NCBI GenBank assembly: GCA_025362575.1
Contig: JANYIQ010000105.1
Location: 1 to 32,807 of the forward strand
Direction of reading: 5' to 3'
Length of the DNA: 32,807 nt
DNA from: Bacteroidia bacterium
Lineage (GTDB): Bacteria > Bacteroidota > Bacteroidia > B-17B0 > Aurantibacillaceae
The notes under the pieces are model-generated. The model was not told where the DNA came from. It did no database searches and was given only the letters and a program-made list of their open reading frames with translations. Shown here piece by piece: positions 6,523-24,634 of this stretch; positions within the stretch are counted from its first letter, which is position 1, and each line of letters begins with the position of its first letter. A program made the position numbers and the translations under genes.

Positions 6523-6528
6523 ACCATA

Positions 6529-6720
6529 ATGGCAAACATTGCCTTATTTATATATGGAATTGGAAACATTAAAGGTGGCGGAGGCGCCGAGCGTTTCTTT
6601 GCCGATTTTTTTGACGAGTACACCAGCTCTAAAATCTTAAAAAACAAACTGTATTACATCATTGATGAAAACTCTGTTCGAAGTTTGAATGTGTGGAATA
6701 GCCGGCATATTATCCTTTGA
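6529..6720 (+). pseudogene. 5' remnant of a GT4 glycosyltransferase, cut off by asnB copy 2
   Basis: Only the first 54 or so codons of a glycosyltransferase survive. They align without frameshift to the N-terminus of the intact enzyme at 8532: about 29 of 54 positions are identical, including the shared block GGGGAERFF and DFFDEY. Similarity stops exactly where the ATG of the second amidotransferase begins (6689); the last codons are out-of-frame reading of that gene, up to a TGA at 6718-6720. A normal GT4 protein has 350-400 residues and needs a C-terminal donor domain, so this product cannot be a working transferase. It might still be translated as a 63-residue peptide and keep translation coupled into the next gene. 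It is best explained as a scar of duplication or recombination. Confidence 0.85.
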
Positions 6721-10748: not shown

Positions 10749-11438
10749 ATGATAGTTTCCATACATCAGCCCAATTTTGTTCCTTGGTTAGGGTACTTCT
10801 TTAAAATTTATAAGAGCGACACATTTGTCATTCTAGATAACGTTCAATTTACTAAGAATGGATTTACCAACCGAAACCGTATCAAAACCCCGCAAGGTGA
10901 AAGCTGGCTAACTCTACCGATCATTCAGTCAGGAAAATTTGGTCAGAATATTACGGATTGCGTGATATTTAACAAGGGCCTTCATGTAAAAAAGATGATC
11001 AGTACATTATCCGCTAACTATAAAAAGGCCAAATATTTTGATAATTATTTTGATACGATTTCAAGCATTATGAAACTTTCGGACGACAATTTATGCAATC
11101 TTAATATTCAGCTCATCGAATTTTCGTTAGTTCAACTCGAAATAAAAACCCAGATCGTTAGATCTTCTGAGCTTAAGAATATTGAAGGCGAAAGTACTGA
11201 ACGATTAATCTCAATTTGTAAAGCTCTCGGTGCAACAAAATATCTGGCTGGATTGGGCGCTAAAAAATATCAGGATGATGAACTCTTTACTCGAAACAGT
11301 ATTGAAGCAATAAACTCGCCCTTTAAGTTTCCTGTTTATGATCAACTATGGGGGGAATTCGTTCCTAACCTATCCATATTGGATGTTTTGTTCAATTGCG
11401 GACCTGAAACCAAAACCATTTTACAAAACGCTGTATAA
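10749..11438 (+). CDS. WbqC-like family protein
   Basis: A 229-residue protein recognisable by its N-terminus, SIHQPNFVPWLGYFFKIYKS, followed by FVILDNVQFTKNGFTNRNRI and TPQGESWLTLPI, which define the WbqC-like family. Members occur in O-antigen and other sugar biosynthesis loci of many phyla. The biochemical role is poorly defined; proposals include a part in making or attaching modified sugars. The conserved histidine and aspartate near the N-terminus (HQPN, LDNVQF) could be catalytic. No membrane segment or signal peptide is seen. Its 3' end overlaps the next glycosyltransferase if that gene starts at 11383. Confidence 0.87.
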   Translation: MIVSIHQPNFVPWLGYFFKIYKSDTFVILDNVQFTKNGFTNRNRIKTPQGESWLTLPIIQSGKFGQNITDCVIFNKGLHVKKMISTLSANYKKAKYFDNYFDTISSIMKLSDDNLCNLNIQLIEFSLVQLEIKTQIVRSSELKNIEGESTERLISICKALGATKYLAGLGAKKYQDDELFTRNSIEAINSPFKFPVYDQLWGEFVPNLSILDVLFNCGPETKTILQNAV

Positions 11439-12657
11439 ACACTTAGTATTTCTGGAGAACCGCAATTTATATATACTAACTACAGGCTTTCCGGTTCTCC
11501 CAAAATCAGAGCCTTATTTGCTTGCTGAAATTTCAGTTTTGAAACAGCACTTTAAAAATATTTATTTCATACCAATTACTGATACTCCTGAGCAGTCTTA
11601 TGAAGGAGAGTTAAATATAATTCGGTATAAAGTAGAGGATACGGCCATTCCATCCCTTTTTTTTATTTTTAGCCAAGTATCGGATGATTTGTGGGCAATA
11701 TTAAAACGGGTAAGAAAATTAAGATCGCTAAGATACTATTTAGCAGATATTAGAAAAACCTTTCAAAAAGCTTTGGCGATCGAAAAAATAATTACTTCAC
11801 CCAGTAATTCCAACCCTCAACTAATTTACGCCTATTGGAGCAACGAGTGCGCAACCATCGCAGCCATCCTGAAAAGCAGATCTGAAAAACCAATTGCATT
11901 AAGCAGGGCCCATGGTTTTGATGTTTTTGAAGAACAAACAAAAGATGGAATCATTCCTTTTCGTGAATTCCAACTTACGCACTTAGATAAAATATTTAGT
12001 GTGTCGAAACAAGGAGAAAATCATCTCAAAAAAATGAACCCATTATTTAATGATAAAATATCTCATTCCTATCTCGGTTCAGTTAAACCGGCAACCTTCA
12101 ATCCATTTGATCCTTCCGAATTTAATTTAGTAACCTGTTGTTTTATAAGAGGTATAAAACGTCTTTCACTGTTTCCCGAAATATTAAAACATATTTCTTT
12201 CAAGGCGAAATGGTTTGTAATTGGAGGCGGTGATGAAAATGAAATAGAACTTATTAAAAGGAACACACAATCACTTCCAACAAATATTGAAGTTATTTTC
12301 TTAGGGCATTTTAATGAAACTGAATTGCACCACTTCTATGAAACGCAATCGCTTAACCTTATGGTTAGCTTAAGCAGCTCAGAAGGATTGCCGTACAGCA
12401 TGATGGAAGCTATCAGCTATGGAATTCCGCTGTTAAGTACCGACGTTGGCGGATGCAAAGAAATTTGCACATCCGAAACAGGCATATTAATTGACAAAAC
12501 GTTTGAACCTAAAAATGTAGCTGAACTTATCAGCAAATTTAGAAATTCAGAAAAAAACGCACTTCCTTTTCGCGAAAATGTTCGAAAATTTTGGCATAAA
12601 AACTTTTATGCTGAAGCCAACTACTCAGAATTCTCAAAACAAATTCTTGAACTATAA
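11383..12657 (+). CDS. Glycosyltransferase, GT4 family
   Basis: A GT-B enzyme of about 424 residues. The open frame extends up to 11338, but that start would overlap WbqC by 101 bases. The ATG at 11383 gives a 56-base overlap, and the real fold begins only at RNLYILTTGFPVLPKSEPYL (11455 on), so the start is uncertain; no ATG, GTG or TTG lies between the WbqC stop and that point. The donor domain has CCFIRGIKRLSLFPEIL, FVIGGGDENEIEL and SSEGLPYSMMEAISYGIPLL, a canonical E-x7-E motif, followed by STDVGGCKEI. AYWSNECATIAAIL and RAHGFDVFEE belong to the acceptor domain. It is the last transferase before the nonulosonate genes. Confidence 0.87.
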   Translation: MFCSIADLKPKPFYKTLYKHLVFLENRNLYILTTGFPVLPKSEPYLLAEISVLKQHFKNIYFIPITDTPEQSYEGELNIIRYKVEDTAIPSLFFIFSQVSDDLWAILKRVRKLRSLRYYLADIRKTFQKALAIEKIITSPSNSNPQLIYAYWSNECATIAAILKSRSEKPIALSRAHGFDVFEEQTKDGIIPFREFQLTHLDKIFSVSKQGENHLKKMNPLFNDKISHSYLGSVKPATFNPFDPSEFNLVTCCFIRGIKRLSLFPEILKHISFKAKWFVIGGGDENEIELIKRNTQSLPTNIEVIFLGHFNETELHHFYETQSLNLMVSLSSSEGLPYSMMEAISYGIPLLSTDVGGCKEICTSETGILIDKTFEPKNVAELISKFRNSEKNALPFRENVRKFWHKNFYAEANYSEFSKQILEL

Positions 12658-12694: not shown

Positions 12695-13387
12695 ATGGCC
12701 ATAGCAATAATCCCTGCCCGCGGCGGAAGCAAAAGGATCCCAGATAAGAACATTAAATTATTCCTGGGCAAACCCATTATTTCTTATGCTATCCATTGCG
12801 CCATGCATTCAAACCTGTTCGACGAGGTAATGGTTTCTACCGACAGTGATAAAATTGCGGAGATCGCTTTAAAAGCAGGAGCTTCGGTTCCTTTTATGCG
12901 TTCGGCTGAGAACTCAAATGACTTTGCAACAACCGCTGATGTTCTTACCGAAGTTTTTGATCAGTACAAAAAGATCGGCCGGAACTATGAAACTGCCTGC
13001 TGCATCTATCCTACTGCTGCCCTGATAAACCCCGAACATTTAAAAGCAGCCGAGATCAGTTTAAATAAAAATAATTTCGACAGTGTGTTTTCAGTGCTAC
13101 AATACAGCTACCCTATCCAAAGAGCACTTAAAACAAAAGGTGATAAAATAGAAATGATCTGGCCTGAAAATAAAAACGCACGCTCACAGGATCTGGAAAC
13201 AAGTTATCACGATGCCGGCCAATTCTATTTTTTTAAGGTTAAACCTTTTCACGAAAATAAAAATCTTTTTACCGGCAATTCAGGCTTCATAACCCTGTCT
13301 GAATTCGAGGCTCAGGATATTGACAACGCGGGTGATTGGGCTATGGCCGAATTAAAATACAAATACCTGCAACAGATAAATGGTTAA
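12695..13387 (+). CDS. pseF: Pseudaminic acid cytidylyltransferase
   Basis: A 230-residue CMP-sugar synthetase. The signature IIPARGGSKRIPDKNI (residues 5-20) is the CTP-binding loop of the NeuA/KdsB family. Later motifs VMVSTDSDKIAEIA, SNDFATTADVL, YPTAALINPEHLKAA and YHDAGQFYFF fit the PseF branch rather than NeuA. The reaction is CTP plus pseudaminic acid to CMP-pseudaminic acid plus pyrophosphate, in the cytoplasm. It opens the nonulosonate part of the locus after a 37-base gap, the largest in the whole + strand block, and overlaps pseG by eight bases. A legionaminic-type substrate (LegF) cannot be fully excluded, but linkage to pseG and pseI favours PseF. Confidence 0.9.
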   Translation: MAIAIIPARGGSKRIPDKNIKLFLGKPIISYAIHCAMHSNLFDEVMVSTDSDKIAEIALKAGASVPFMRSAENSNDFATTADVLTEVFDQYKKIGRNYETACCIYPTAALINPEHLKAAEISLNKNNFDSVFSVLQYSYPIQRALKTKGDKIEMIWPENKNARSQDLETSYHDAGQFYFFKVKPFHENKNLFTGNSGFITLSEFEAQDIDNAGDWAMAELKYKYLQQING

Positions 13388-14399
13388 ACCTAAAGTATTC
13401 ATAAGAGCTGAAGGCGGTGCCAATATTGGTCTTGGCCATATCATTCGCTGTCTGGCACTGGCCGACATCATTAAATCGGATTTTTCAATACATTTCATAA
13501 TCAGCAACAACGATCCGAAAATCGTTGAACTTATCAGATCTGTTACGAACGATATAATCTTTTTACCGAAACTAAGTTTACTTGATGAATGGAAAGAAAT
13601 TAAAAAGATCATTAAGCCAAATGATGTTCTTGTTATAGACGGCTACGATTTCAAAGAAGAATATCAAAAACTAATTAAACAAAATTTAGGCTGTACTTTA
13701 ATTGCTATAGATGATCTTCATGCCTGGCACCAATATGCTGATGCAGTAATAAACCACGCAGTTGGCGGAATTGAAAATTTATATTCCAAAGAAAATTACA
13801 CCAAAGTGTATTGCGGTTTGGATTACGCCTTATTACGGAGTGAATTTAAAAAAGCACCGCCAACAAAAAAAGAAGACGGAACAGTATTGGTTGCCATGGG
13901 TGGTGCCGACCCTTATAATTTTACAAAACGAATAGTGAACTCATTGCTGCCCTTTACAGATATCAAAACCATAAATGCTCTGATCGGTAAACTTAATCCT
14001 AACAAAGAATTGCTTGAAAGATCAGTATCGGAAGCAAAACAGAAGGGCAAAGAATTAGTACTGATCGATCATTTGAGCGCATCGGAACTCGCAACTCTAT
14101 ATGGTAAAAGTGCGTTCTGCATCCTTTCTTCGAGTGGCATGGCTATTGAAGCCCTGGCGGTTGGAGCCAATTTAGGCGTAATCAAAACGGCAAATAATCA
14201 AAGTGATTTTTACAACTACATCATAAAAAACAAACTGGCTAAAGATTGCAGCGTATTGGCGGAAGCAGGCGCAGAACTTACTGAAAAAAGCATTGCTTCA
14301 CTGATGGAAGGCTCGACCAAACAAAATTCATTCTCTGCTGAAAATAGCAGCAAGAACATAAAACAGATCTTTTCACAATGGGTAGCAAACAAAGCCTGA
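13380..14399 (+). CDS. pseG: UDP-2,4-diacetamido-2,4,6-trideoxy-beta-L-altropyranose hydrolase
   Basis: A 339-residue GT-B-like hydrolase. The N-terminal FIRAEGGANIGLGHIIRCLA has the GxGHxxR motif (residues 17-23) that carries the catalytic histidine in PseG. The C-terminal half has VLVAMGGADPYNFTKRIV and CILSSSGMAIEALAVGA, which bind UDP. It removes UDP from the diacetamido sugar, releasing the free hexose that PseI condenses with phosphoenolpyruvate. It overlaps pseF by eight bases, so the two are translationally coupled although they act at separate steps. Length and motifs fit the family well; it is a separate protein here, not fused to an acetyltransferase as in some organisms. Confidence 0.9.
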   Translation: MVKPKVFIRAEGGANIGLGHIIRCLALADIIKSDFSIHFIISNNDPKIVELIRSVTNDIIFLPKLSLLDEWKEIKKIIKPNDVLVIDGYDFKEEYQKLIKQNLGCTLIAIDDLHAWHQYADAVINHAVGGIENLYSKENYTKVYCGLDYALLRSEFKKAPPTKKEDGTVLVAMGGADPYNFTKRIVNSLLPFTDIKTINALIGKLNPNKELLERSVSEAKQKGKELVLIDHLSASELATLYGKSAFCILSSSGMAIEALAVGANLGVIKTANNQSDFYNYIIKNKLAKDCSVLAEAGAELTEKSIASLMEGSTKQNSFSAENSSKNIKQIFSQWVANKA

Positions 14400-14400
14400 A

Positions 14401-14431
14401 TTGCTTGCTACAGTATAAATTCTTAAATTTG
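14401..14431 (+). promoter_or_regulatory. Possible internal promoter before the methyltransferase gene
   Basis: A TTG at 14401-14403 lies 20 bases before TAAATTTG (14424-14431), an exact match to the Bacteroidota -7 element TAnnTTTG. A transcript from here would start at or next to the ATG at 14437, giving a nearly leaderless message. The site lies in one of the few gaps of the locus. Short AT-rich matches arise easily by chance, so this is tentative. Confidence 0.3.
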
Positions 14432-14436
14432 TGTCA

Positions 14437-15324
14437 ATGAGCGCTAAAGTAATATTGAATAAATACGGATTTTATGAGGTTTCCGAAAAGCCCAGTGCCG
14501 CCGAACTTGAAGAGTATTACGCAAAAAAATATTACCAATCCGGAAAAGGTTCCTACGAGGCTGAATACCCGCCTGAAGAATATCTTTATTTTAATAATAA
14601 GATCGAACAAAAGAACTGGGTCATCAAAAAATTATTTACAGCCGAGACCGAAAAGCGATCACTTCTGGATATTGGCTGCGGCGAAGGTTTCACTTTAAAT
14701 TATTATAAGAAAAAAGGCTGGACAGTAGTGGGTTTGGATTACAGTGAATTTGGAGTTAAAAAATTCAACCCTGATTGTTTACCAGATCTAATAACAGGAG
14801 ACATTTACGAAAAAATGCAGCCCTTAATAAAGAGCAATACTAAATTTGATGTCGTTTGGCTTGATAATTTACTGGAACACGTTCTGGATCCCTTGAATTT
14901 ACTAAAAGAGTGCAAAAGACTTTTAAAACCGGATGGTGTTCTTGTTATAGAAGTGCCGAACGATTTTTCCGTTCTGCATAAATTCTTGCTCGAAAAAAAA
15001 TATATTAATTCTGAATTCTGGATCGCCATACCCGATCATCTTTCTTACTTTAATAAAAGTGGCCTTGAAGCCATTTCTTCTGACGCTGGCTTTAAAACCG
15101 AATTTTCCATTGGTGACTATCCGATTGATTTCAGCTTAATGAATCCTGATTCTAATTACAATAAAGACAAAAGCAAAGGGAAGAACGCCCACTTTTCACG
15201 TATTGAAATGGAAAATCTTATTCATTCCATTTCCGTTGAAAAAGCCGTGGAATATTTCAAATCCCTTGCCGATCTTGGATTGGGCAGACAACTCGTCTCT
15301 TTCTTAAAACACAAAGAATCGTAA
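14437..15324 (+). CDS. Class I SAM-dependent methyltransferase
   Basis: A protein of about 295 residues with the SAM-binding motif I SLLDIGCGEGFTLNYYKKKG (GxGxG at about residues 80-84), an acidic residue after strand 2 (VVGLDYSEFG), and motif VVWLDNLLEHVLDPLNLL with LLKPDGVLVIEVPND, the usual order of class I methyltransferases. The N-terminal YGFYEVSEKPSAAELEEYY region is common in methyltransferases from sugar loci. I prefer the ATG at 14437; a GTG at 14431 would add two residues but lies within a possible promoter. Lying between pseG and pseI, it may methylate the nonulosonate or an acyl group on it. The acceptor is unknown. Confidence 0.85.
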   Translation: MSAKVILNKYGFYEVSEKPSAAELEEYYAKKYYQSGKGSYEAEYPPEEYLYFNNKIEQKNWVIKKLFTAETEKRSLLDIGCGEGFTLNYYKKKGWTVVGLDYSEFGVKKFNPDCLPDLITGDIYEKMQPLIKSNTKFDVVWLDNLLEHVLDPLNLLKECKRLLKPDGVLVIEVPNDFSVLHKFLLEKKYINSEFWIAIPDHLSYFNKSGLEAISSDAGFKTEFSIGDYPIDFSLMNPDSNYNKDKSKGKNAHFSRIEMENLIHSISVEKAVEYFKSLADLGLGRQLVSFLKHKES

Positions 15325-15325
15325 A

Positions 15326-16030
15326 GTGAAAGTTGCAATTTTATCAGATATTCACGGTAATAGTTGCGCTTTACAGAGGGTGCTGCAAATTGCAAAAAAG
15401 GAAAAGGTTCAAAAATTACTCGTTTTGGGTGATCTGGTCGGATACTATTATCATCCCGACAAGGTGATGCAACTACTTTCAGAATGGCAATACAGTTTAA
15501 TAAAAGGCAATCATGAAGATCTCCTGGCAGGTATTCTCAACGGAAAGATAATTGAAAGTGATCTGCGAAAAAAATACGGCAGCGGTCATAAACTGGCATT
15601 AGAAAAATTAAACAAAGACACTATCAATACCATAACTACTGCACCTGAGCAAATGAATATAGAATTGAACAAGGTTCGCTTTTTAATGTGTCACGGTTCG
15701 CCATGGGATCACGATCACTACATTTATCCTGATGCAGAAGCGGAAATACTGAACAAATGTGACCGAACTGATGCAGATTTTGTTGTGTGCGGACATTCCC
15801 ATTATCAATTCATTCATCGCAACACTCATAGTACTTTGATAAACGTGGGTTCAGTTGGTCAATCACGAAACATGGGCGGAATTGCCAATTGGGTAATTGT
15901 AAATACAGATAATAAAAGTGTTGAGATGAAAGCAACACCTTATGACACGAGTGAACTTGAAAAAGAAGTAAAAGAAGTCGATCCAACGCTGCCCTATTTG
16001 CATGAAATACTTAAAAGAAACAGGTCTTGA
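15326..16030 (+). CDS. Metallophosphoesterase (calcineurin-like, YfcE/MJ0936 type)
   Basis: A 234-residue phosphoesterase starting at GTG, one base after the previous stop. All metal-ligand motifs are present: SDIHGN (Asp8, His10), LGDLVGY (Asp36), GNHE (Asn62, His63), CHGSPW (His123) and CGHSHYQF (His157, His159). The enzyme would hydrolyse a phosphate mono- or diester using two metal ions. It overlaps the next gene by four bases (TTGA). In this position it may remove a phosphate from a nonulosonate intermediate or from the acyl modifier made by its neighbours. A housekeeping phosphodiesterase is possible but less likely in such a compact operon. Confidence 0.88.
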   Translation: MKVAILSDIHGNSCALQRVLQIAKKEKVQKLLVLGDLVGYYYHPDKVMQLLSEWQYSLIKGNHEDLLAGILNGKIIESDLRKKYGSGHKLALEKLNKDTINTITTAPEQMNIELNKVRFLMCHGSPWDHDHYIYPDAEAEILNKCDRTDADFVVCGHSHYQFIHRNTHSTLINVGSVGQSRNMGGIANWVIVNTDNKSVEMKATPYDTSELEKEVKEVDPTLPYLHEILKRNRS

Positions 16031-16971
16031 ATAAAACTTACAACATATTAGTTACAGGCTGTGGCGGCGATATTGGTCAAAGCATCGGGAAGATCTTAAA
16101 ATCCGATAAATTTTTCAAAAGTGTTATTGGCTGCGACATGAATGATGAGCATGCCGGTAAATTTATTTTTGATATCTGCGAGAAAATTCCTGCATGCCGT
16201 GCCGAAAATTATTTCGAAGTTCTAGAAGGCATTGTAAAAAAATATGCCATCGACATTATTTTGCCGGTCTCAGAGCCTGAATTAAGATTTTTTACCGAAA
16301 GAAAAATAAGCAGTCAGATATCAGGAAAACCATTGATCACTGCCAATTTAAAAGCTATGGAAATTGGTTTTGATAAATTAAAGACTGCTCAGTTTTTAAA
16401 AACCGAAAACCTGATCTATCCTGAAACAACTCTTATCAGTGAAGTTCTTCAACCTAAACTTCCCATGATCCTGAAAGACCGGACGGGATCAGGAAGCAAG
16501 GCCTTATTCCTGGTTAAAGATTTTGAGGAATTTGAATTCTATAAGAAGAAATATCCCGGATACATACTTCAGCAATATCTGGAAAACGCGAATGAAGAAT
16601 ATACCTGTGGATTATTCAGAGATGCAAAAGGAAACATTAGAATATTAAATTACAAACGCAAGTTGATGGGCGGCTTCTCAGGATACGGTCTTGTAGTCGA
16701 GAACAAACAAATAGATGATCTGCTTTATCAAATTGCAAAAAAAATTGATTTAAGAGGCTCCATTAATGTTCAGTTACGTTTAACGGAAAAGGGCCCAATG
16801 GTCTTTGAAATTAATCCGCGTTTTTCAAGTACTGTTATGTTCAGACACATGATGGGATTTAAAGATGTGATCTGGAGCATTCAGGATGTTCTTGGATCAG
16901 GCATTGACAATTACACTCCTCCACCTGCAGGCAAAAAATTTTATAAGGGATTTTATGAATACATTGATTAA
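16027..16971 (+). CDS. ATP-grasp domain enzyme, carbamoyl-phosphate-synthase-like
   Basis: A 314-residue protein starting at TTG in a TTGA overlap with the phosphoesterase. The N-terminus ILVTGCGGDIGQSIGKIL is a pre-ATP-grasp Rossmann segment. The ATP-grasp core has PMILKDRTGSGSKALFLV (ATP-binding lysine and small loop), LQQYLENANEEYTCGLF and MVFEINPRFSSTV (about residues 257-269), whose glutamate and asparagine would bind magnesium. Such enzymes form an acyl-phosphate and join it to an amine or other nucleophile. Here it probably attaches an amino acid or small acid to an amino group of the sugar. It overlaps pseI by 17 bases. Substrates are unknown; family assignment is secure. Confidence 0.85.
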   Translation: MNKTYNILVTGCGGDIGQSIGKILKSDKFFKSVIGCDMNDEHAGKFIFDICEKIPACRAENYFEVLEGIVKKYAIDIILPVSEPELRFFTERKISSQISGKPLITANLKAMEIGFDKLKTAQFLKTENLIYPETTLISEVLQPKLPMILKDRTGSGSKALFLVKDFEEFEFYKKKYPGYILQQYLENANEEYTCGLFRDAKGNIRILNYKRKLMGGFSGYGLVVENKQIDDLLYQIAKKIDLRGSINVQLRLTEKGPMVFEINPRFSSTVMFRHMMGFKDVIWSIQDVLGSGIDNYTPPPAGKKFYKGFYEYID

Positions 16972-18010
16972 ACCAATCCGATTTGGAAATATTATGGTGA
17001 GTGATCAGCACAAACCTTTTATAATTGCCGAAATGAGCGGCAACCATAACCAATCTCTCGAAAGAGCATTTGCCCTGGTTGATGCTGCTGCTGAAGCCGG
17101 AGCTCATGCTTTAAAATTGCAGACCTACACAGCAGACACCATCACTATGAAAGGGGCCTTTAAAATTGACGATAAAACTTCTTTATGGAACGGCGAAGAA
17201 TTGCATGAACTTTATGGTAAGGCATCTACACCATGGGAATGGCATGAACCTATTTTTAACCGCGCTAAAGAAAAAGGAATGCTTGCTTTCAGTTCTCCCT
17301 TTGATGAAACTTCGGTGGATTTTCTTGAGAAACTAAATGTTCCGGCTTATAAAATTGCTTCTTTCGAAAACACACATCATCCATTACTCAAAAAAGTAGC
17401 AAGAACCGGCAAGCCCGTTATTATGTCAACCGGGGTTTCAACTTTAAAAGATATTGAGGAGAGTGTTAAGGTATTAAAAGACAATGGATGCGAACAGATC
17501 GTATTATTGAAATGTACCAGCACCTACCCTTCTTCACCAGAAAACACCAATTTAAACGCGATACCACGTTTAAGAGAATTGTTTGATTGCATGGTTGGTC
17601 TATCTGATCATACAATGGGTATTGGTGCTTCGGTGGCTGCCATTGCTTTAGGAGCCCGCGTTATTGAAAAACATTTTACCATGAGCAGAGACGATGGTGG
17701 AGTTGACAGTGCTTTTTCATTAGAACCGGATGAACTAAAAGCACTTGTGGTTGAAACAGAAAGAGCTTATTTAGCCATGGGTAGTGATTTTATAGGTGTA
17801 CAGGAAACTGAAAAAAGCTCTTTGAATTTCAAACGCTCCATATATATTTCAGAGGATATTAAAGCCGGGCAACTTATCAGTCCTGAAAACATAAGAGTGA
17901 TAAGGCCTGCTTTAGGTCTCGCTCCAAAATATTACGATGTTGTAATAGGTAAAAAGGCAAAAACAGATCTGCAAAAAGGAAAACCATTATCTATGGATGA
18001 TCTGATCTAG
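16955..18010 (+). CDS. pseI: Pseudaminic acid synthase
   Basis: A 351-residue NeuB-type synthase. I start it at the ATG at 16955, because homologs begin just before the PFIIAEMSGNHNQSLERAFA motif; a longer reading from 16886 would lie deep in the upstream gene. The TIM-barrel part has HALKLQTYTADTITM, YKIASFENTHHPLLKKVA, IMSTGVSTLKDIEE, LLKCTSTYPSSPEN, GLSDHTMGIG and VIEKHFTMSRDDGGVDSAFS. A C-terminal antifreeze-like SAF domain follows (about residues 290-351: RSIYISEDIKAGQLI). The reaction condenses 2,4-diacetamido-2,4,6-trideoxy-L-altrose with phosphoenolpyruvate to give pseudaminic acid. EMSGNHN is typical of PseI rather than NeuB or LegI. Confidence 0.92.
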   Translation: MNTLIKPIRFGNIMVSDQHKPFIIAEMSGNHNQSLERAFALVDAAAEAGAHALKLQTYTADTITMKGAFKIDDKTSLWNGEELHELYGKASTPWEWHEPIFNRAKEKGMLAFSSPFDETSVDFLEKLNVPAYKIASFENTHHPLLKKVARTGKPVIMSTGVSTLKDIEESVKVLKDNGCEQIVLLKCTSTYPSSPENTNLNAIPRLRELFDCMVGLSDHTMGIGASVAAIALGARVIEKHFTMSRDDGGVDSAFSLEPDELKALVVETERAYLAMGSDFIGVQETEKSSLNFKRSIYISEDIKAGQLISPENIRVIRPALGLAPKYYDVVIGKKAKTDLQKGKPLSMDDLI

Positions 18011-18011
18011 A

Positions 18012-19337
18012 ATGATGTCTTATTTCAAATTATTTTTTTACTACAAGCTTGCCCTTCTCAAAAATATTTTTGGTTCATCTGCCCCTTCTGCTTTTAACGA
18101 TTCAATAAAAACCAATTTCAGGGATCAAAGTTACCGCTATCCCGAAAAAGCTACTAAAGACCTGTTCATCTGCTTTAAGGTCTTCAAAACCATCTTTCTT
18201 TCCCAGCTCCGAAAAACAGAAGTTAAATTCAACAGATCTTCATCCGGAATTGCCCTATTTGATGGCGATATACGTCATGCCCAAACCCGATTTGATTACG
18301 TAAAATACCTTAGTGGCGACGACGCGAAAGTTCTGATAGGCCGTTCTCAGCTCTTAAATAGTCCTTCTCCTTTAATATCTCTGTTCACCATTTTACTGAG
18401 TGCATTGTGGTTTCCTTTCATTTTACCACTTTCCCTTTTTTCAAAAAATAAGCTTCGTTATCCCTTGCATTTCCTAGGCACCATCGAAGCCTTTCATTTG
18501 TTATACTTATTGAAATTTCATGGGATCAATAAACTTCATTTTTTCTGCATCTATGAGAACGACGCCAATCTACTTGCGTATTCGCTGATGAAATCTAAGA
18601 TATTCATTAATAAGATCACATCAGAAGCACCTTTGTCAGTTTGGAATAAGTGCATTGTTGCTGACACGGTGAGTTTTTGTTTTCAATATCAGGAAGAAGA
18701 ATATAATTTATTCAGATCAACAATGCATGTAAACGCCTTTCAGCATTGGATCCCGGAGGCTTCTGTTGAATTAATACCAATTTACTTAAACAAAAGACCT
18801 GAAATAATTAAAAATACAATTGGTTTCTACTCAAGCGCAATGTGGCTAAGGGAAAAAACCGGTCGTGTTGACCTTAAAATAGATGCGGTTGAAAATGAAA
18901 ACAAATTACTCAGCTATCTCCTGAATTTCATAAACGAAAACAAAAAATACAAATTGACTCTTTTTTTGCATCCGCTGGAAAAACAAAACATTAAAGAAGC
19001 CATGGAATATTACAAGGGTTTGAATCCGGAAATTGAAATAGCTGATGCTTCACTTAAAAATTCCTTTCAGTTCTTTAATGCGGATGTTGTGGTTACCTTA
19101 TACTCAACCCTATTATTTGAACGCCTTTTCTGGGGTTTCAAAACCCTTATCATGCCTATGGGCCTGAAGGATTTTCCCATTAAAGGCTCTTTCCTTAATA
19201 CGATCTGTTGTATAGACGAAAAAGATCTTAAAAACAAACTAAGCCTGGCTATAGAGCAGGATACGAATACATTCTTCTCAAAGAATAATATTAGTGCTTG
19301 CCGCTACTCTGAATACGAAATTTTCAAATCTCATTAA
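18012..19337 (+). CDS. Unassigned protein, candidate nonulosonate transferase
   Basis: A 441-residue protein of no family I can name with confidence. Hydrophobic stretches near residues 120-145 (FTILLSALWFPFILPLSLF) could be a membrane segment or buried helix. The C-terminal half has features resembling bacterial sialyl- and polysialyltransferases with a GT-B fold: LFLHPLEK with an HP pair (His320, Pro321), and LYSTLLFERLFWG with a Ser-Thr pair (365-366) followed by a glutamate, at the spacing where those enzymes bind CMP-sialic acid. It starts two bases after pseI and lies inside the nonulosonate gene set, so transfer of CMP-pseudaminic acid is a reasonable hypothesis. This is inference; no close homolog is known to me. 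Confidence 0.6.
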   Translation: MMSYFKLFFYYKLALLKNIFGSSAPSAFNDSIKTNFRDQSYRYPEKATKDLFICFKVFKTIFLSQLRKTEVKFNRSSSGIALFDGDIRHAQTRFDYVKYLSGDDAKVLIGRSQLLNSPSPLISLFTILLSALWFPFILPLSLFSKNKLRYPLHFLGTIEAFHLLYLLKFHGINKLHFFCIYENDANLLAYSLMKSKIFINKITSEAPLSVWNKCIVADTVSFCFQYQEEEYNLFRSTMHVNAFQHWIPEASVELIPIYLNKRPEIIKNTIGFYSSAMWLREKTGRVDLKIDAVENENKLLSYLLNFINENKKYKLTLFLHPLEKQNIKEAMEYYKGLNPEIEIADASLKNSFQFFNADVVVTLYSTLLFERLFWGFKTLIMPMGLKDFPIKGSFLNTICCIDEKDLKNKLSLAIEQDTNTFFSKNNISACRYSEYEIFKSH

Positions 19338-19365: not shown

Positions 19366-20481
19366 ATGAACGAACTGATCAAATTTAATATTCCCTATTT
19401 TTCAGGCAAGGAAAAGATCTTTGTGCAGGAAGCTATTGAAAACAAAAAGATCTCAGGAGATGGTCCATTCACTCAAAAATGTCAACTGTTCTTTGAAAAG
19501 CGATACGGATTCAAAAAAGTATTCTTAACCACTTCTTGCACAGATGCACTGGAAATGACGTCCATTCTGCTAAATATCAAAGATGGTGATGAAGTTATTT
19601 TACCATCCTACACCTTTGTTTCAACTGCGAATGCTTTTTTATTAAGAGGTGCCAAATTAATATTTGCCGACTCGGGTAATGACAATCCAAATATAGATGT
19701 AAAAACCATTGAATCTCTGATCACCCCAAAAACAAAGGCGCTTGTGATCATGCATTATGCGGGCATTGCCTGTGATATGGATGAGATAATGATTCTTGTA
19801 AAAAAACATAATTTGTTTTTAGTTGAGGATGCGGCATTGGGCTTGGATTCTTTTTATAAAGGAAAAGCCTTGGGTAGTTTCGGGCATTTATCTACATTCT
19901 CGTTTCATGATACCAAAAATATTTATTGCGGCGAAGGTGGGATGCTGGTAATTAACGATGAGCAATTCATTAAACGTGCTGAGATCATTCGCGAAAAAGG
20001 AACCAATAGAAGTGCTTTTTTCAGAGGAGAAGTTGATAAATATGGCTGGGCCGATATTGGATCTTCATTTTTACCTTCGGATATGCTTGCAGCCTTTTTA
20101 TGGGCACAACTCGAAGCCATTGAGTTAATACAAACCAAACGCGTTGAGATCTGGAATTATTATTACAATGCCCTAAAAAGCCTGGTATCATTGCCTCTTA
20201 TAGATCCTAACAAAAAAATGAACGGAAGCATTTTTTACTTTACCTGTAAAAGCTCTGACGAGAGAACAACTTTGATTACACATCTGAAAAATAAAGGAAT
20301 ACAAAGTTCTTTTCATTATCAGTCTCTGCACAAAAGTTCTTTTTTTGTAGCACAAAATAAAACGCTGATCAATTCCGATAAATACTCTGATCGTTTATTG
20401 AGATTGCCTTTGTATCCGGATCTAACAACGGAGCAATTGGGCACAATAACAAGTGCTGTTATTGATTTCTTCAGGAAATAA
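19366..20481 (+). CDS. DegT/DnrJ/EryC1/StrS sugar aminotransferase, WecE/RffA-like
   Basis: A 371-residue PLP-dependent aminotransferase. It begins FNIPYFSGKEKIFVQEAI and shows GDGPFTQKCQ, TTSCTDALEM, LPSYTFVSTANAF and VEDAALG (Asp155 for the pyridine nitrogen). The PLP lysine is Lys184 in FSFHDTKNIYCGEGGM. The FHDTKN and GDGPFT forms match the WecE/RffA branch, which makes dTDP-4-amino-4,6-dideoxygalactose, more than PseC. It therefore probably supplies an amino-dideoxyhexose for the glycan, though a role as PseC substitute cannot be ruled out from sequence alone. It is the last gene of the + strand locus and converges on the GIY-YIG gene. Confidence 0.87.
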   Translation: MNELIKFNIPYFSGKEKIFVQEAIENKKISGDGPFTQKCQLFFEKRYGFKKVFLTTSCTDALEMTSILLNIKDGDEVILPSYTFVSTANAFLLRGAKLIFADSGNDNPNIDVKTIESLITPKTKALVIMHYAGIACDMDEIMILVKKHNLFLVEDAALGLDSFYKGKALGSFGHLSTFSFHDTKNIYCGEGGMLVINDEQFIKRAEIIREKGTNRSAFFRGEVDKYGWADIGSSFLPSDMLAAFLWAQLEAIELIQTKRVEIWNYYYNALKSLVSLPLIDPNKKMNGSIFYFTCKSSDERTTLITHLKNKGIQSSFHYQSLHKSSFFVAQNKTLINSDKYSDRLLRLPLYPDLTTEQLGTITSAVIDFFRK

Positions 20482-20527
20482 TCATTTACGTAATTAGCTC
20501 AAGGGTAAAGACAAAACACTCTAAATT

Positions 20528-20620
20528 CAGATTGCTTCCCGCTTCGTTCCTTGCGGTCGCTACGACGATGTCACGAGAGTTCGTCATTGCGAATGCAGCG
20601 CAGCGGAATGAAGCAATCTG
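20528..20620. repeat. REP-like palindromic repeat, full inverted pair
   Basis: The outer arms CAGATTGCTTC (20528-20538) and GAAGCAATCTG (20610-20620) are perfect inverted complements of 11 bases, around an imperfectly paired core that contains CGTCATTGCGAA. The element is 93 bases long, GC-richer than its surroundings, and ends 11 bases beyond the stop of the GIY-YIG gene. Similar GTCATTGCGA/GAAGCAATCT palindromes recur in many bacterial genomes. It may also serve as a transcription stop between the two converging gene sets, since no ordinary terminator is seen after the aminotransferase. Confidence 0.8.
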
Positions 20621-20631
20621 TCCATTAACGA

Positions 20632-20931
20632 TCACCAATTCAAAACTTCTTCGTATAAATCCTTCCAATCTGGATTTACTGAATTGATCAATTCCTCCTT
20701 CTTCTTTCTCGAGCCTCCCTTAATTTGCTTTTCTCGCGAAATGGCCTCTTCTATATTATGAAAGCCTTCATAATAAACCAACTTAGCTAAATTATATTTT
20801 GCCGTAAAAGAGCTTGGATAGACTTTATTCTTATGCTCTGAAATTCTTTTCTTTAAGTCGGAGGTAACGCCGGTATATAAAGTAGAGTTAGTTTTATTTG
20901 TTACAATATAAACAGCACCTCCACGTTTCAT
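20632..20931 (-). CDS. Small single-domain GIY-YIG endonuclease-like protein
   Basis: A 99-residue protein consisting only of the GIY-YIG nuclease domain (UPF0213/YhbQ-like size). The signature reads VYIVTNKTNSTLYTGVT (YIV and YTG replace GIY and YIG), followed by the conserved arginine in DLKKRISEHK, the catalytic glutamate in ISREKQIKGGSRKKKEELI, and the C-terminal NPDWKDLYEEVL typical of this group. Family members are thought to cut DNA, but for most small ones no role is known. The gene stands alone between pyrH and the glycan locus, with palindromic repeats on both sides, which suggests that nuclease and repeats belong together. It is oriented with the translation genes but has no clear promoter of its own. 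Confidence 0.88.
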   Translation of the reverse strand: MKRGGAVYIVTNKTNSTLYTGVTSDLKKRISEHKNKVYPSSFTAKYNLAKLVYYEGFHNIEEAISREKQIKGGSRKKKEELINSVNPDWKDLYEEVLNW

Positions 20932-20970
20932 AGATTAATCATTTCGCTAATTTAATGATTTCGTAAAGGG

Positions 20971-21009
20971 CAGATTACTTCGCTCCACTCCGTTCCGCTC
21001 GTAATGACG
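20971..21009. repeat. REP-like half repeat upstream of the GIY-YIG gene
   Basis: A 39-base unit starting CAGATTACTTC and ending GTAATGACG. It has the same length and the same ends as the reverse complement of the right half (20582-20620) of the full repeat at 20528-20620 (CAGATTGCTTC ... GCAATGACG); the interiors differ. It lies 39 bases before the GIY-YIG start. The following bases 21018-21040 hold a further short inverted repeat (ATCAC/GTGAT), possibly a decayed second arm. Confidence 0.7.
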
Positions 21010-21072
21010 TCGCCTTGAATCACCTTTCGGTCGTGATGATGTTCTAATTGAGTTTCGTTTCTAAGGTAATCT

Positions 21073-21780
21073 CTAAACCTCCACTAAAGTTCCTACCTTA
21101 TCACCTTTAAGAAGCATTTGCAAATTTCCTTTTTTGTTCATATCAAAAACAATGATCGGCAAATTATTTTCTTTGCAAAGTGTAAAAGCGGTCATGTCCA
21201 TTACCTCTAAACTTTTTTCGTAAAGCTCTTCGAATTTAATGGTATCGTATTTTTTAGCGCTGCTGTCTTTTTCAGGATCGGCTGTGTAAATTCCATCTAC
21301 CCGTGTTCCTTTTAAAATAACATTCGCTTCAATTTCAATGGCTCTTAATGCTGCTGCTGTATCTGTTGTGAAATAAGGGTTTCCGGTGCCTGCACCAAAA
21401 ATAACCACTCTTCCTTTTTCTAAATGGCGAACTGCTTTACGGCGAATGAATGGCTCGCAAATTTGTTCCATTTTAATGGCGCTCTGTAAACGTGTTTGCA
21501 CTCCTAATCCTTCCAATGCCGCCTGAATGGCCATTGAATTAATTACTGTGGCTAACATACCCATGTAATCGCCGTGTACACGATCCATTCCGCCTTTTTC
21601 GGCCTGTATGCCTCTGAAAATATTTCCCCCGCCAATTACAATGGCGATCTGACAACCGGCGTTGTAGGCTTCCTTAATTTCCTTTGCGTACTCCATCAAG
21701 CGATCCTGATCGATACCAAAACCTTTTTTGCCCATTAGGGCCTCTCCTGATAATTTTAATAATACTCTTTTATATTTCAT
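21073..21780 (-). CDS. pyrH: UMP kinase
   Basis: A 235-residue bacterial UMP kinase of the amino acid kinase fold, which phosphorylates UMP to UDP with ATP. Motifs: [18 protein letters not shown] at the N-terminus, [13 protein letters not shown] (phosphate-binding glycines), [35 protein letters not shown] (UMP and nucleotide binding) and [18 protein letters not shown]. The length matches the family (about 235-240). It lies 198 bases downstream of tsf and is separated from it by a strong terminator, so it probably has its own promoter in that gap. The ribosome recycling factor gene, which often follows pyrH, is not next to it here; a repeat and the GIY-YIG gene follow instead. Confidence 0.96.
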
Positions 21781-21942
21781 GTTGAGATAATTTGTTTTTT
21801 ATGGTAACATGGTATACACATCATGCCATTTAATTTTATTTTTTTAATGATGGATGTTTCATGGTTAATTTCCTGTTACAACATTCTTGTTAGAACAGAT
21901 CCTTCGTGACGATTCATTGTGACGAAGGCTGACATAGTACAC

Positions 21943-21972
21943 AAAAAAAATCCCGACCTAATGGTCGGGATT
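21943..21972 (-). terminator. Rho-independent terminator after tsf
   Basis: Read on the - strand, a perfect 10-base stem AATCCCGACC/GGTCGGGATT with a 4-base loop is followed by a run of eight or more T. It begins seven bases after the tsf stop codon, so it should end the ribosomal-protein transcript efficiently. Confidence 0.92.
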
Positions 21973-21978
21973 CAATTT

Positions 21979-22797
21979 TTAAGATAAAGAAAAGCGTTTG
22001 AAACCTGTTACGGTCAGATCTTTATTTATGCTTTGTAAATATTGACGGATCGATAATTTATTATCTTTAATATACTCCTGGTTCAATAAAGTAGATTCTT
22101 TGTAGAACTTATTTAATTTACCGGCAGCAATTTTTTCCACCATGTCTTCAGGTTTACCTTCTGCGCGAATTTGTTCGCGTGCAATTTCCAATTCTCTCTC
22201 TAAGATCGATGCATCTACATCATCTTTATCAAGGGCAACCGGTGCCATAGCGGCAGTTTGCATAGCAACATTCTTTGCAGCTTCATCATCAATATCTTTA
22301 TTGAAACCAACAACTACCGCTAAACGATTACCCGGGTGATTGTATGCAACAACTTTTTCGCCGGCAACTGCATTGAAATATCCAATGTCAATTTTCTCTC
22401 CGATCTTACCAATTTGCTCCATGAATTTATCGGCAATTGTAATTTCAGAATTATAAGGCAATGCTTTAAGTGCATCAATACTTGCCGGTTTTTTCTCTAA
22501 AGCGATGGTTGCAACCGTATCCGCAAACTTAATGAAATCTTCATTTTTTGCAACGAAATCAGTTTCGCAATTCACACTAATAACAATTCCGTTCTTAGAA
22601 TTTGTTTTTGCGAGAACTACTCCTTCTTTTGCATCTCTGTCGGCACGATTAGCGGCAACTTTTGCGCCTTTTTTACGCAAAAAATCCACTGCTTGTTCAA
22701 AGTCACCATTGGTTTCTTCCAATGCTTTTTTGCAATCCATCATACCTGCGCCTGTTTGCTGGCGTAATTTGTTTACATCTGCTGCTGTGATAGCCAT
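21979..22797 (-). CDS. tsf: Translation elongation factor Ts
   Basis: A 272-residue EF-Ts, the nucleotide exchange factor that regenerates EF-Tu-GTP. The N-terminal UBA-like domain is classical: ITAADVNKLRQQTGAGMMDC, then KKALEETNGDFEQAVDFLRK. The core carries the TDFVAKNEDF motif (residues around 77-88), which contacts EF-Tu, and later HPGNRLAVVVGFN and VAMQTAAMAP. Length is close to the E. coli protein (283). It lies 92 bases downstream of rpsB, with a hairpin in between that may lower or tune its expression relative to S2, and is followed by a strong terminator. Confidence 0.97.
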   Translation of the reverse strand: MAITAADVNKLRQQTGAGMMDCKKALEETNGDFEQAVDFLRKKGAKVAANRADRDAKEGVVLAKTNSKNGIVISVNCETDFVAKNEDFIKFADTVATIALEKKPASIDALKALPYNSEITIADKFMEQIGKIGEKIDIGYFNAVAGEKVVAYNHPGNRLAVVVGFNKDIDDEAAKNVAMQTAAMAPVALDKDDVDASILERELEIAREQIRAEGKPEDMVEKIAAGKLNKFYKESTLLNQEYIKDNKLSIRQYLQSINKDLTVTGFKRFSLS

Positions 22798-22833
22798 AAT
22801 TTTATTTTTTATTTGTTATTTATATTTCTAGTT

Positions 22834-22867
22834 AAAAAAAACGGTCAGCCTGTTTCCAGAGTGACCG
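22834..22867 (-). terminator. Hairpin with T run between rpsB and tsf, possible attenuator
   Basis: On the - strand a stem CGGTCA/TGACCG (22862-22867 pairing with 22842-22847), with a second inner CTG/CAG pairing, is followed by eight T. It lies 22 bases after the rpsB stop inside what is otherwise one operon, so it looks like a partial terminator. It is weaker than the one after tsf because the stem is interrupted. Confidence 0.65.
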
Positions 22868-22889
22868 CTTAATAATTTATATGATACTA

Positions 22890-23750
22890 TTATTTTTTTA
22901 CTGCGCTCACTCTTTTGCGTGGTTTACGAGCTGCCCCTTTATCACCACTTTCTTCTTCGTTACTAGCACCTTTAATGTTAAGGCCTGCTACTAACTCTTC
23001 TGCTTCATGTTTAGAATCTTCTTTAGTTTCTTTTTCTTCGGCAGCTTGTGCTTCTTTATCCATTTTACGCTCAGCTAATCCTTCTTTAATAGCGATGCTC
23101 ATTAGGTCAGTGATATAAGCGATAGAAGTAGAAGCATCATCATTTGCAGGAATAGCGTAATCTACTTCATTTGGATTTGAATTTGTATCAACGATCGCAA
23201 AAGTTGGAATGTTTAAACGTTTTGCTTCTTTAACTGCGATATGTTCTTTGGTGATATCAACAATAAATAAAGCAGCAGGTAAACGAGATAATTCAGCCAT
23301 TGAACCAAACTGAGTCTCTAATTTAGCTCTCTCACGAGAAAACTGTAAACGTTCTTTCTTAGAAATATTCTCATAAGTACCATCTGTTTGCATTTTATCT
23401 AACTGCGCCATACGACGGATAGATTTACGGATAGTTGCAAAATTGGTTAACATACCGCCCGGCCAACGCTCAGTAACATAAGGCATGTTAAGAGGCTTAA
23501 TTCTCTCAGCTACGATATCTTTTGCCTGTTTTTTAGTAGCAACAAATAATATTTTTTTACCTGAACGCGCAATTTGTTTCAAAGCATCAGCTGCTTCGTC
23601 AACTTTGGCAACAGTTTTATTTAAATCGATAATGTGAATACCGTTTTTTTCTGCGTATATATAAGGAGCCATCGCTGGATTCCATTTACGCTTAAGGTGC
23701 CCAAAGTGTGCACCGGCTTCAAGTAGTTCGTTAAAAGTTGTTCTAGGCAT
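22890..23750 (-). CDS. rpsB: 30S ribosomal protein S2
   Basis: A 286-residue S2 protein. The conserved body is clear: LLEAGAHFGHLKRKWNPAMA, YIYAEKNGIHIIDLNKTV, ILFVATKKQAKDIVAE, YVTERWPGGMLTNFATIRKS, LPAALFIVDITKEHIAVKEA and IVDTNSNPNEVDYAIPANDD. It is about 45 residues longer than the E. coli protein because of a charged, low-complexity tail from about residue 230 (rich in Glu, Lys and Ala, ending KPRKRVSAVKK), which is common in Bacteroidota. It binds the 30S subunit late in assembly and helps hold S1. It follows rpsI by 30 bases and probably shares the rplM promoter. Confidence 0.97.
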   Translation of the reverse strand: MPRTTFNELLEAGAHFGHLKRKWNPAMAPYIYAEKNGIHIIDLNKTVAKVDEAADALKQIARSGKKILFVATKKQAKDIVAERIKPLNMPYVTERWPGGMLTNFATIRKSIRRMAQLDKMQTDGTYENISKKERLQFSRERAKLETQFGSMAELSRLPAALFIVDITKEHIAVKEAKRLNIPTFAIVDTNSNPNEVDYAIPANDDASTSIAYITDLMSIAIKEGLAERKMDKEAQAAEEKETKEDSKHEAEELVAGLNIKGASNEEESGDKGAARKPRKRVSAVKK

Positions 23751-23780
23751 TTTTTCTTTTGTAAATTATAAAATAAAATA

Positions 23781-24167
23781 TTAACGTTTGCTGAATTGGA
23801 AGCGAGCACGCGCTTTTTTCTGACCGAATTTCTTACGTTCCACCATACGCGGGTCACGTGTCATTAATTCAGCACCTCTTAAAATTGTTTTGTATTCAGG
23901 ATTGATCTCAACTAAAGCTTTAGCAATTGCTAAACGAATAGCTTGTGCCTGACCTGTTATCCCGCCGCCCTTTACGTTTACTTTAACATCGTATTCATTC
24001 AATACCTTAATGGCATTTAATGATTGTGTTACATAATATTGTAAAGTTGGAGTTGGAAAATAAGTTTTATAGTCTTTACCGTTTACTTCGATATCGCCTT
24101 TTCCTTTTTGCATGTACGCACGAGCAACTGAAGTTTTTCTGCGACCTGATGTATTAATGATTTCCAT
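23781..24167 (-). CDS. rpsI: 30S ribosomal protein S9
   Basis: A 128-residue S9 protein with all the usual features: NTSGRRKTSVARAYMQKGKG at the N-terminus, VNVKGGGITGQAQAIRLAIA in the middle, and the basic C-terminal tail RDPRMVERKKFGQKKARARF ending QFSKR, which reaches into the P site to contact the tRNA anticodon stem. It starts eight bases after rplM ends, the conserved L13-S9 pair found in nearly all bacteria. Confidence 0.97.
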   Translation of the reverse strand: MEIINTSGRRKTSVARAYMQKGKGDIEVNGKDYKTYFPTPTLQYYVTQSLNAIKVLNEYDVKVNVKGGGITGQAQAIRLAIAKALVEINPEYKTILRGAELMTRDPRMVERKKFGQKKARARFQFSKR

Positions 24168-24175
24168 TCTGTATA

Positions 24176-24634
24176 CTAAGCTTTAATTTTACTTAAATCA
24201 ATTTTCTTTGGTTGTTGTGCTTCATGTTTGTGCTCAGTACCTGCGTATATATATACGTTAGTATTTAAAGTACGTCCTAAACGGTTCTTAGGTAACATAC
24301 CATGAATAGCATGTGTTAAAATCTCAGTTGGTTTGCTTTTTAACCACTCTTTTGGAGTAGCAAAACGCTGACCACCCGGATAACCTGTGTAACGGATATA
24401 TTCTTTATCACTGGTTTTTTTACCTGTAAAGCGAACTTTATCAGCGTTAATAATTATCACATTTGAACCACAATCGGCAAATGGTGTAAAATTAGTTTTG
24501 TGTTTACCACGTAACATATATGCTACTTTAGAGGCTAAACGGCCAACAACTTCATTTTCTGCGTCGATCAAGATCCAATCTTTAGTGCTGGTTGCTTGAT
24601 TTACGTACTGCGTTTTATAACTTAATGCGTCCAC
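24176..24634 (-). CDS. rplM: 50S ribosomal protein L13
   Basis: A 152-residue L13 protein. The start is GTG at 24634; the N-terminus MDALSYKTQYVNQATSTKDW is at the position usual for Bacteroidota L13. Conserved segments: LIDAENEVVGRLASKVAYML, RGKHKTNFTPFADCGSNVII, GKKTSDKEYIRYTGYPGGQR and HAIHGMLPKNRLGRTL. It is an early-assembly protein of the 50S subunit. It is the first gene of the rplM-rpsI-rpsB-tsf operon, with a well-formed promoter just upstream. In other bacteria L13 can regulate its own messenger; the leader of about 35 bases here is too short for me to judge. Confidence 0.97.
   Translation of the reverse strand: MDALSYKTQYVNQATSTKDWILIDAENEVVGRLASKVAYMLRGKHKTNFTPFADCGSNVIIINADKVRFTGKKTSDKEYIRYTGYPGGQRFATPKEWLKSKPTEILTHAIHGMLPKNRLGRTLNTNVYIYAGTEHKHEAQQPKKIDLSKIKA

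Follow-up and report, generated by a model that had tools for sequence, protein, structure and literature searches.

Bacteria make many sialic-acid-like sugars and, to our knowledge, few enzymes that attach pseudaminic acid (Pse) or legionaminic acid (Leg) have been identified. The Tannerella forsythia protein GtfS (Tanf_01245), a GT-B protein of 445 residues whose gene directly follows pseI, has been identified by knock-out and mass spectrometry as the transferase of a Pse derivative (PMC6120980, PMC6388019). According to the same papers, GtfS and TFUB4_00887 are strain versions of the T. forsythia nonulosonate transferase that are paired with Pse or Leg pathways. A CMP-binding site of solved structure is that of KrkA (GT140), a retaining Kdo transferase in which H227-P228, S271-S272 and E276 hold CMP (PMC12887879).

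The stretch of DNA analysed here (the window; 32,807 nucleotides) is one whole contig of a draft genome of 327 contigs from a member of the Bacteroidia. It encodes, on the forward strand, pseF (CMP-Pse synthetase; 12695..13387; TIGR03584, 292 bits), pseG (UDP-sugar hydrolase; 13380..14399; TIGR03590, 179 bits) and pseI (pseudaminic acid synthase; 16955..18010; TIGR03586, 481 bits), each over its NCBIfam equivalog cut-off, in agreement with a first-pass annotation of the DNA that had assigned the locus to CMP-pseudaminic acid synthesis. The pseI start is probably 16955 and not 16886, as the TIGR03586 match to the long ORF opens at its residue 43. The pseB gene lies elsewhere in the genome, on a different contig (TIGR03589, 509 bits). 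Between pseG and pseI lie methyltransferase, metallophosphoesterase and ATP-grasp genes recognised by Pfam (14431..16971, forward strand), which are possible sugar-modifying genes. The metallophosphoesterase and ATP-grasp genes directly precede pseI (15326-16971) and have the same arrangement in a genome from a different class (L104, genome G225); the pair is perhaps a conserved pseudaminic-acid-modifying module.

One base past the pseI stop (18010) begins a 441-residue ORF (18012..19337, forward strand), the location directly after pseI being as first annotated. The next gene encodes a WecE-type dTDP-4-keto-6-deoxysugar aminotransferase (19366..20481, forward strand; NF008687/TIGR02379 over cut-off), and such a gene also directly follows the homologue of the 441-residue protein in three other loci (L014, L016 and L019). 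We consider the 441-residue protein a candidate CMP-nonulosonate (CMP-Pse) glycosyltransferase on the basis of a GT-B-like model, an HP/ST/E motif and linkage to synthase genes. It probably represents a GT-B family of CMP-nonulosonate transferases that is confined to one clade and apparently undescribed, with CMP-Pse as the donor in this genome, an activity that we infer. We also favour, with rather less assurance, a more detailed description, that of an unclassified CMP-nonulosonate glycosyltransferase family in which pairing with Pse or NeuB-type (sialic/legionaminic-like) pathways is interchangeable, the cytidine pocket lacks the canonical K/R-x-HP and an N-terminal helix is inserted in the membrane.

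Other parts of the window also contain genes of note. A 370-residue ORF (664-1776) has no Pfam, NCBIfam or PDB match, and the remaining glycan locus is annotatable. Two adjoining asparagine-synthetase-like (AsnB) genes lie at 4765-8527, and AsnB-like genes are also found near many of the homologues of the 441-residue protein. The variable glycan locus of this genus has a common chromosomal end point, next to pyrH and tsf, in five or more genomes (window 20481-24634; also L014, L015, L016 and L019).

The C-terminal half of the 441-residue protein had been read as carrying an HP pair and, about 45 residues later, a Ser-Thr pair, and both are in place: LFLHPLEK gives H320-P321 (18969..18974, forward strand) and LYSTLLFE gives S365-T366, at a spacing of 45 residues, within an S365-T366-xxx-E370-R371 motif (19104..19124, forward strand). 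Across an alignment of 21 diverse sequences, with homologues 22-49% identical to the query, the HP motif is kept in 21/21, as are the S/T pair and E370-R371. No variation is seen at H320, P321, E323, E370 or R371; position 365 is Ser in 20 sequences and Thr in one, and position 366 is Thr in 20 and Ser in one; further invariant positions are Y96, S204, Y226, E230, S274, R280 and E296. Scored strictly, as HP-x(40-55)-[ST][ST]-xxx-E within the C-terminal half, the motif is present in all 21 family members compared to 7 of 504 (1.4%) similar-sized ORFs of the fetched loci, and it arises in 0.19% of 20,000 shuffles of the window protein. The motif is not chance. The broader combination typical of CMP-sugar GT-B enzymes, an HP, an S/T pair some 40-50 residues on and a ribose-binding Glu, is likewise found in 21/21. 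The likeness to sialyltransferases that had been proposed from these elements is only partial: the HP and S/T-xxx-E are shared, but the (K/R)xHP form, which marks sialyltransferases of GT29/38/42/52/80 and Kdo transferases of GT99/107, occurs in 0/21 homologues, all of which have Phe or Tyr two residues ahead of the His, and D/E-D/E-G, the catalytic motif of the bacterial GT38/52/80 enzymes, is absent in 19/21 and not conserved in the other two.

Searches of family databases agree with the earlier statement that the protein has no clear family. A Pfam scan at E up to 10 returned a sole match, to PF04464 (residues 309-370, E 0.03), and its 13.6 bits lie below the curated cut-off of 22.1 bits, for which reason membership was rejected; 2 of the 21 homologues match PF04464 at E up to 1. 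NCBIfam gave no match for the window protein and PDB sequence searches gave nothing usable. We therefore use "new family" in the sense of having no counterpart in Pfam, NCBIfam or the sequences of the PDB. The profiles of GT38 (PF07388), GT42 (PF06002), GT52 (PF07922) and GT80 (PF11477) were unmatched by the window protein (E up to 10) and its 21 homologues (E up to 1), and HMM searches with PF05159 likewise matched none of these sequences. A search for PF07922 in 198 genomes also gave no match and is uninformative, because the controls matched nothing either. Filing the family under GT38, GT42, GT52, GT80, PF05159 or PF04464 was rejected on motifs and profile cut-offs.

The sole Pfam match would be explained if the protein were a cytidine-nucleotide transferase of another kind, namely a TagF-like (PF04464) CDP-glycerol or CDP-ribitol phosphotransferase, and TagF chains do appear among the Foldseek matches. 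We regard this as highly improbable: the profile match is 0.2% to clear PF04464 members and reaches 73% only with weak, mixed members, the genome itself has no PF04464 member over cut-off, and the constant neighbour of the family is an ulosonate synthase, with no CDP-alditol gene recognised in the window.

Of 87 genomes in the GTDB-style family to which the window belongs, 24 have a homologue of the window protein. Among 395 genomes sampled from the phylum there was one full match, outside that family (G102), and a weak 20.8-bit piece in G070 that we took as chance, and a 92-genome family of the same phylum gave weak partial matches only. A contig scan for close relatives with the single window protein as query found no match; with an alignment of the closer relatives as query it recovered three loci, all in Bacteroidota/Bacteroidia MAGs. 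Viral contigs and plasmids contained no match to the family. Within the collections searched, the family is clade-restricted.

The genomic surroundings of these homologues tie the family to nonulosonate synthesis. Of the 25 homologue matches, 22 share a contig with a NeuB/PseI-family synthase, in every case at a distance of no more than 2.8 kb; the remaining three are from short contigs or contig ends that have no synthase. By comparison, only 8 of 63 homologues of a GT4 protein of the window (11338-12657), taken from the same genomes as a control, have a NeuB/PseI-family synthase within 6 kb. A NeuB/PseI synthase is encoded in 23/24 genomes with a homologue vs. 61/87 overall (hypergeometric 6e-4). 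The first-pass annotation had proposed a profile search for proximity to such synthases, which every testable copy (22/22) shows, and had named a distribution mainly in genomes without nonulosonate genes as evidence against its reading, which is the opposite of that found.

The partner synthases differ among loci. Some, as in the window, are PseI over cut-off, others are NeuB-type and fall below the NnaB equivalog cut-off, and two are short NeuB-domain proteins. These last two (L021:10449-11144 and L053:8092-8823; 231-243 residues) match the NeuB catalytic domain only, adjoin the homologue of the window protein and lie near a cytidylyltransferase-like gene, and each may make an unusual ulosonic acid. 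L015 encodes (2594-4366) a 590-residue protein in which a NeuB-like domain is joined to a cytidylyltransferase-like one. A maximum-likelihood tree of the family contains, on well-supported branches, at least four switches of partner synthase between the PseI type and other types, one of them between the close relatives L016 and L019 of the window's own genus, and the association with a synthase is kept throughout. Thus, the gene is not simply hitch-hiking with one pathway; the family stays with nonulosonate synthesis whichever pathway is present. Partner synthases cluster weakly on the tree (18/500 shuffles were as low for Pse, and 24/200 for three groups together), and so the tree alone does not show donor specificity. 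One homologue (L063:1062-3560) is fused, with a domain of this family (~1-455) followed by a WbuX-type N-acetyl-sugar amidotransferase (residues 462-798), an enzyme class that modifies such sugars.

The fetched homologue neighbourhoods, which extend up to ~10 kb on either side, contain essentially no HP/ST protein besides the family member; the pattern is otherwise matched there by two asparagine synthetases, by a protein in L053 that looks unrelated and, in L064, by a divergent member of the family itself. This observation bears on a second HP-type protein of the window's genome. On contig C309 (L173:3858-5084), a protein of at least 409 residues that runs off the contig end is encoded directly after pseB and contains VKTHPNS, a (K/R)xHP form, which makes it a candidate for another ulosonate transferase. 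The description of the locus as otherwise holding only GT4-type transferases is hence roughly right within the window but fails genome-wide, and the argument that a transferase was missing is weaker than stated because this protein sits beside pseB elsewhere in the genome. One may suppose that the C309 protein is the organism's CMP-Pse transferase and that the window protein transfers another sugar of the same nonulosonate-containing glycan; the position and motif of the C309 protein, together with a weak profile match (42%) to HP proteins of other Bacteroidota, encoded at 5 bases and 1.5 kb from pseI, speak for this. Still, we think it improbable, as the relatives' fetched loci contain no other HP/ST transferase beside the window family and something there must use the CMP-nonulosonate. 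The two proteins need not, moreover, be mutually exclusive as transferases.

Elsewhere in the phylum, different unassigned proteins are encoded beside or near pseI (L071, L084, L086, L091, L115, L116 and L122), some with RPHP or KAHP and S/T, which suggests that the phylum harbours several unrelated-looking ulosonate transferase families. When the pseI-adjoining proteins (L071, L084 and similar) were examined as relatives of GtfS, none was matched by the window profile. The HP/DxD protein of L086, with its DxD at 203, matched that profile weakly (41%).

Structure prediction is consistent with our preferred reading of the window protein as a GT-B transferase. A full-length AlphaFold (AF2) model of modest confidence, built from a four-sequence alignment (pLDDT 63, pTM 0.53), has two α/β domains in GT-B order and matches GT-B chains with VIA Z scores of 10-11.7 over residues 75-438. 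The predicted N-terminal domain is Rossmann-like (~residues 79-202; 18246..18617, forward strand) and contains a predicted hydrophobic helix (residues 120-143), a stretch that by hydropathy is kept in most homologues; this domain is a candidate for the acceptor and membrane side of the enzyme. The C-terminal domain (residues 262-441; 18795..19334, forward strand) is predicted by the domain model, VIA and hhalign to be the GT-B nucleotide-binding domain and, when modelled alone, with better confidence (pLDDT 77, pTM 0.79), matches GT-B C-domains with a Z of ~10. In the predicted model the HP follows strand 314-318 of this Rossmann domain and the ST opens the helix after strand 359-363. The predicted fold is thus that of a GT-B enzyme with two Rossmann-like domains and HP and ST in the C-terminal one, and the fold without a GT-B nucleotide pocket that had been put forward as a refutation was not encountered.

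The Foldseek/VIA matches listed are mainly UDP-sugar GT-B enzymes and UDP-GlcNAc 2-epimerases, with no sialyltransferase or KpsC/WbbB among them, and as generic GT-B matches they do not single out CMP-sugar enzymes from UDP enzymes. The prevalence of UDP-GlcNAc 2-epimerases among these structures, together with an 89% match of the window profile to PseG, itself a GT-B hydrolase, over 253 columns, would fit a non-transferase GT-B enzyme of nonulosonate metabolism, either a PseG/NeuC-like sugar-nucleotide hydrolase or epimerase or a modifier of the CMP-sugar. This alternative appears quite unlikely: the window already has a PseG over the equivalog cut-off, no family member obviously replaces pseG in a locus, and HP characterises GT-B enzymes that use cytidine nucleotides, not UDP-sugar hydrolases.

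Profile-profile comparison is more informative. In hhalign, residues 306-416 align with PF05159 members at 83%, HP on HP and ST on ST, and at 88% with a PF05159 member from another genome (L091), where it lies 2.5 kb away from pseI; reversed profiles scored <3% and GT4 proteins <1% as controls. In the phylum sample, two other genomes encode PF05159 members close to pseI, and the window's own genome has none. The HP/ST half is distantly related to PF05159, which includes Kdo and pseudaminic-acid transferases.

In the mechanism that we envisage, PseF would make CMP-Pse from the PseB-PseC-PseH-PseG-PseI route, and the window protein would take Pse from CMP-Pse, its presumed donor, and pass it to the putative membrane-side acceptor, a surface glycan that would be extended at the membrane's inner face and is probably lipid-linked. 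The C-terminal domain would bind CMP as in KrkA (GT140), in which case His320 would contact the phosphate, Pro321 would lie against the cytosine, Ser365 and Thr366 would be directed to the phosphate and Glu370 to the ribose. Acceptor binding and membrane attachment would fall to the N-terminal domain and its hydrophobic helix; the predicted helix at 120-143 suggests membrane contact and a lipid-linked acceptor. By eye, the window protein has no clear Asp equivalent to the nucleophile of retaining Kdo enzymes, and conservation marks D84, E182/D184, E230 and E296 as candidates for a catalytic base. Where the neighbouring synthase is of NeuB type, the family member would have a different CMP-nonulosonate as its donor.

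A family that is repeatedly paired with both kinds of pathway provides a concrete gene set to assay, and its natural variation offers material for studying how donor choice changes. If the activity is confirmed, the transferase step could be assigned in surface-glycan loci of these uncultured Bacteroidota, and the family might be a source of enzymes for making Pse- and Leg-containing glycans.

How, then, does the window protein compare with known systems? The GT38, GT52 and GT80 enzymes share with it a GT-B-like layout and an HP followed by an S/T pair, but GT38, GT42, GT52 and GT80 all differ from the window family in that Pfam finds no match, (K/R)xHP occurs in 0/21 and D/E-D/E-G is unconserved. 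The TagF-like CDP-alditol transferases of PF04464 are also cytidine-nucleotide GT-B enzymes, and their sub-threshold match covers the HP/ST stretch. KpsS1 (GT118) and KpsC/KpsS (GT107), which are CMP-Pse or CMP-Kdo transferases of PF05159 (Capsule_synth), align with its HP + S/T-E half (83-88%); relative to these enzymes the window protein has Phe/Tyr for Lys/Arg before HP and an N-terminal half that is unrelated at the profile sensitivity used. The protein is like CMP-sugar transferases, a putative activity in its case, without belonging to GT38/42/52/80, PF05159 or PF04464.

KrkA shows no sequence similarity to the window protein in a PDB sequence search, and its nucleophile Asp193 has no obvious counterpart there. 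However, KrkA, like the window family, is without K/R before HP (PMC12887879), and the spacings between its H227-P228, S271-S272 and E276 are 44 and 5 compared to 45 and 5 in the window protein. GtfS, the nearest precedent in function, is reported to have a DXD at residue 205 and a D/E-D/E-G (PMC6388019), and neither is conserved in the window family, where the window protein has a DxD at 84 only and none is conserved across the family; this comparison with GtfS is one of published motifs, and the two may be distantly related. What GtfS/TFUB4_00887 and the window protein have in common is a Bacteroidota host, the gene order pseG-pseI-transferase, the GT-B architecture and an HP motif, which is reported for GtfS. 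The sequence family is apparently new, and the kind of reaction is known.
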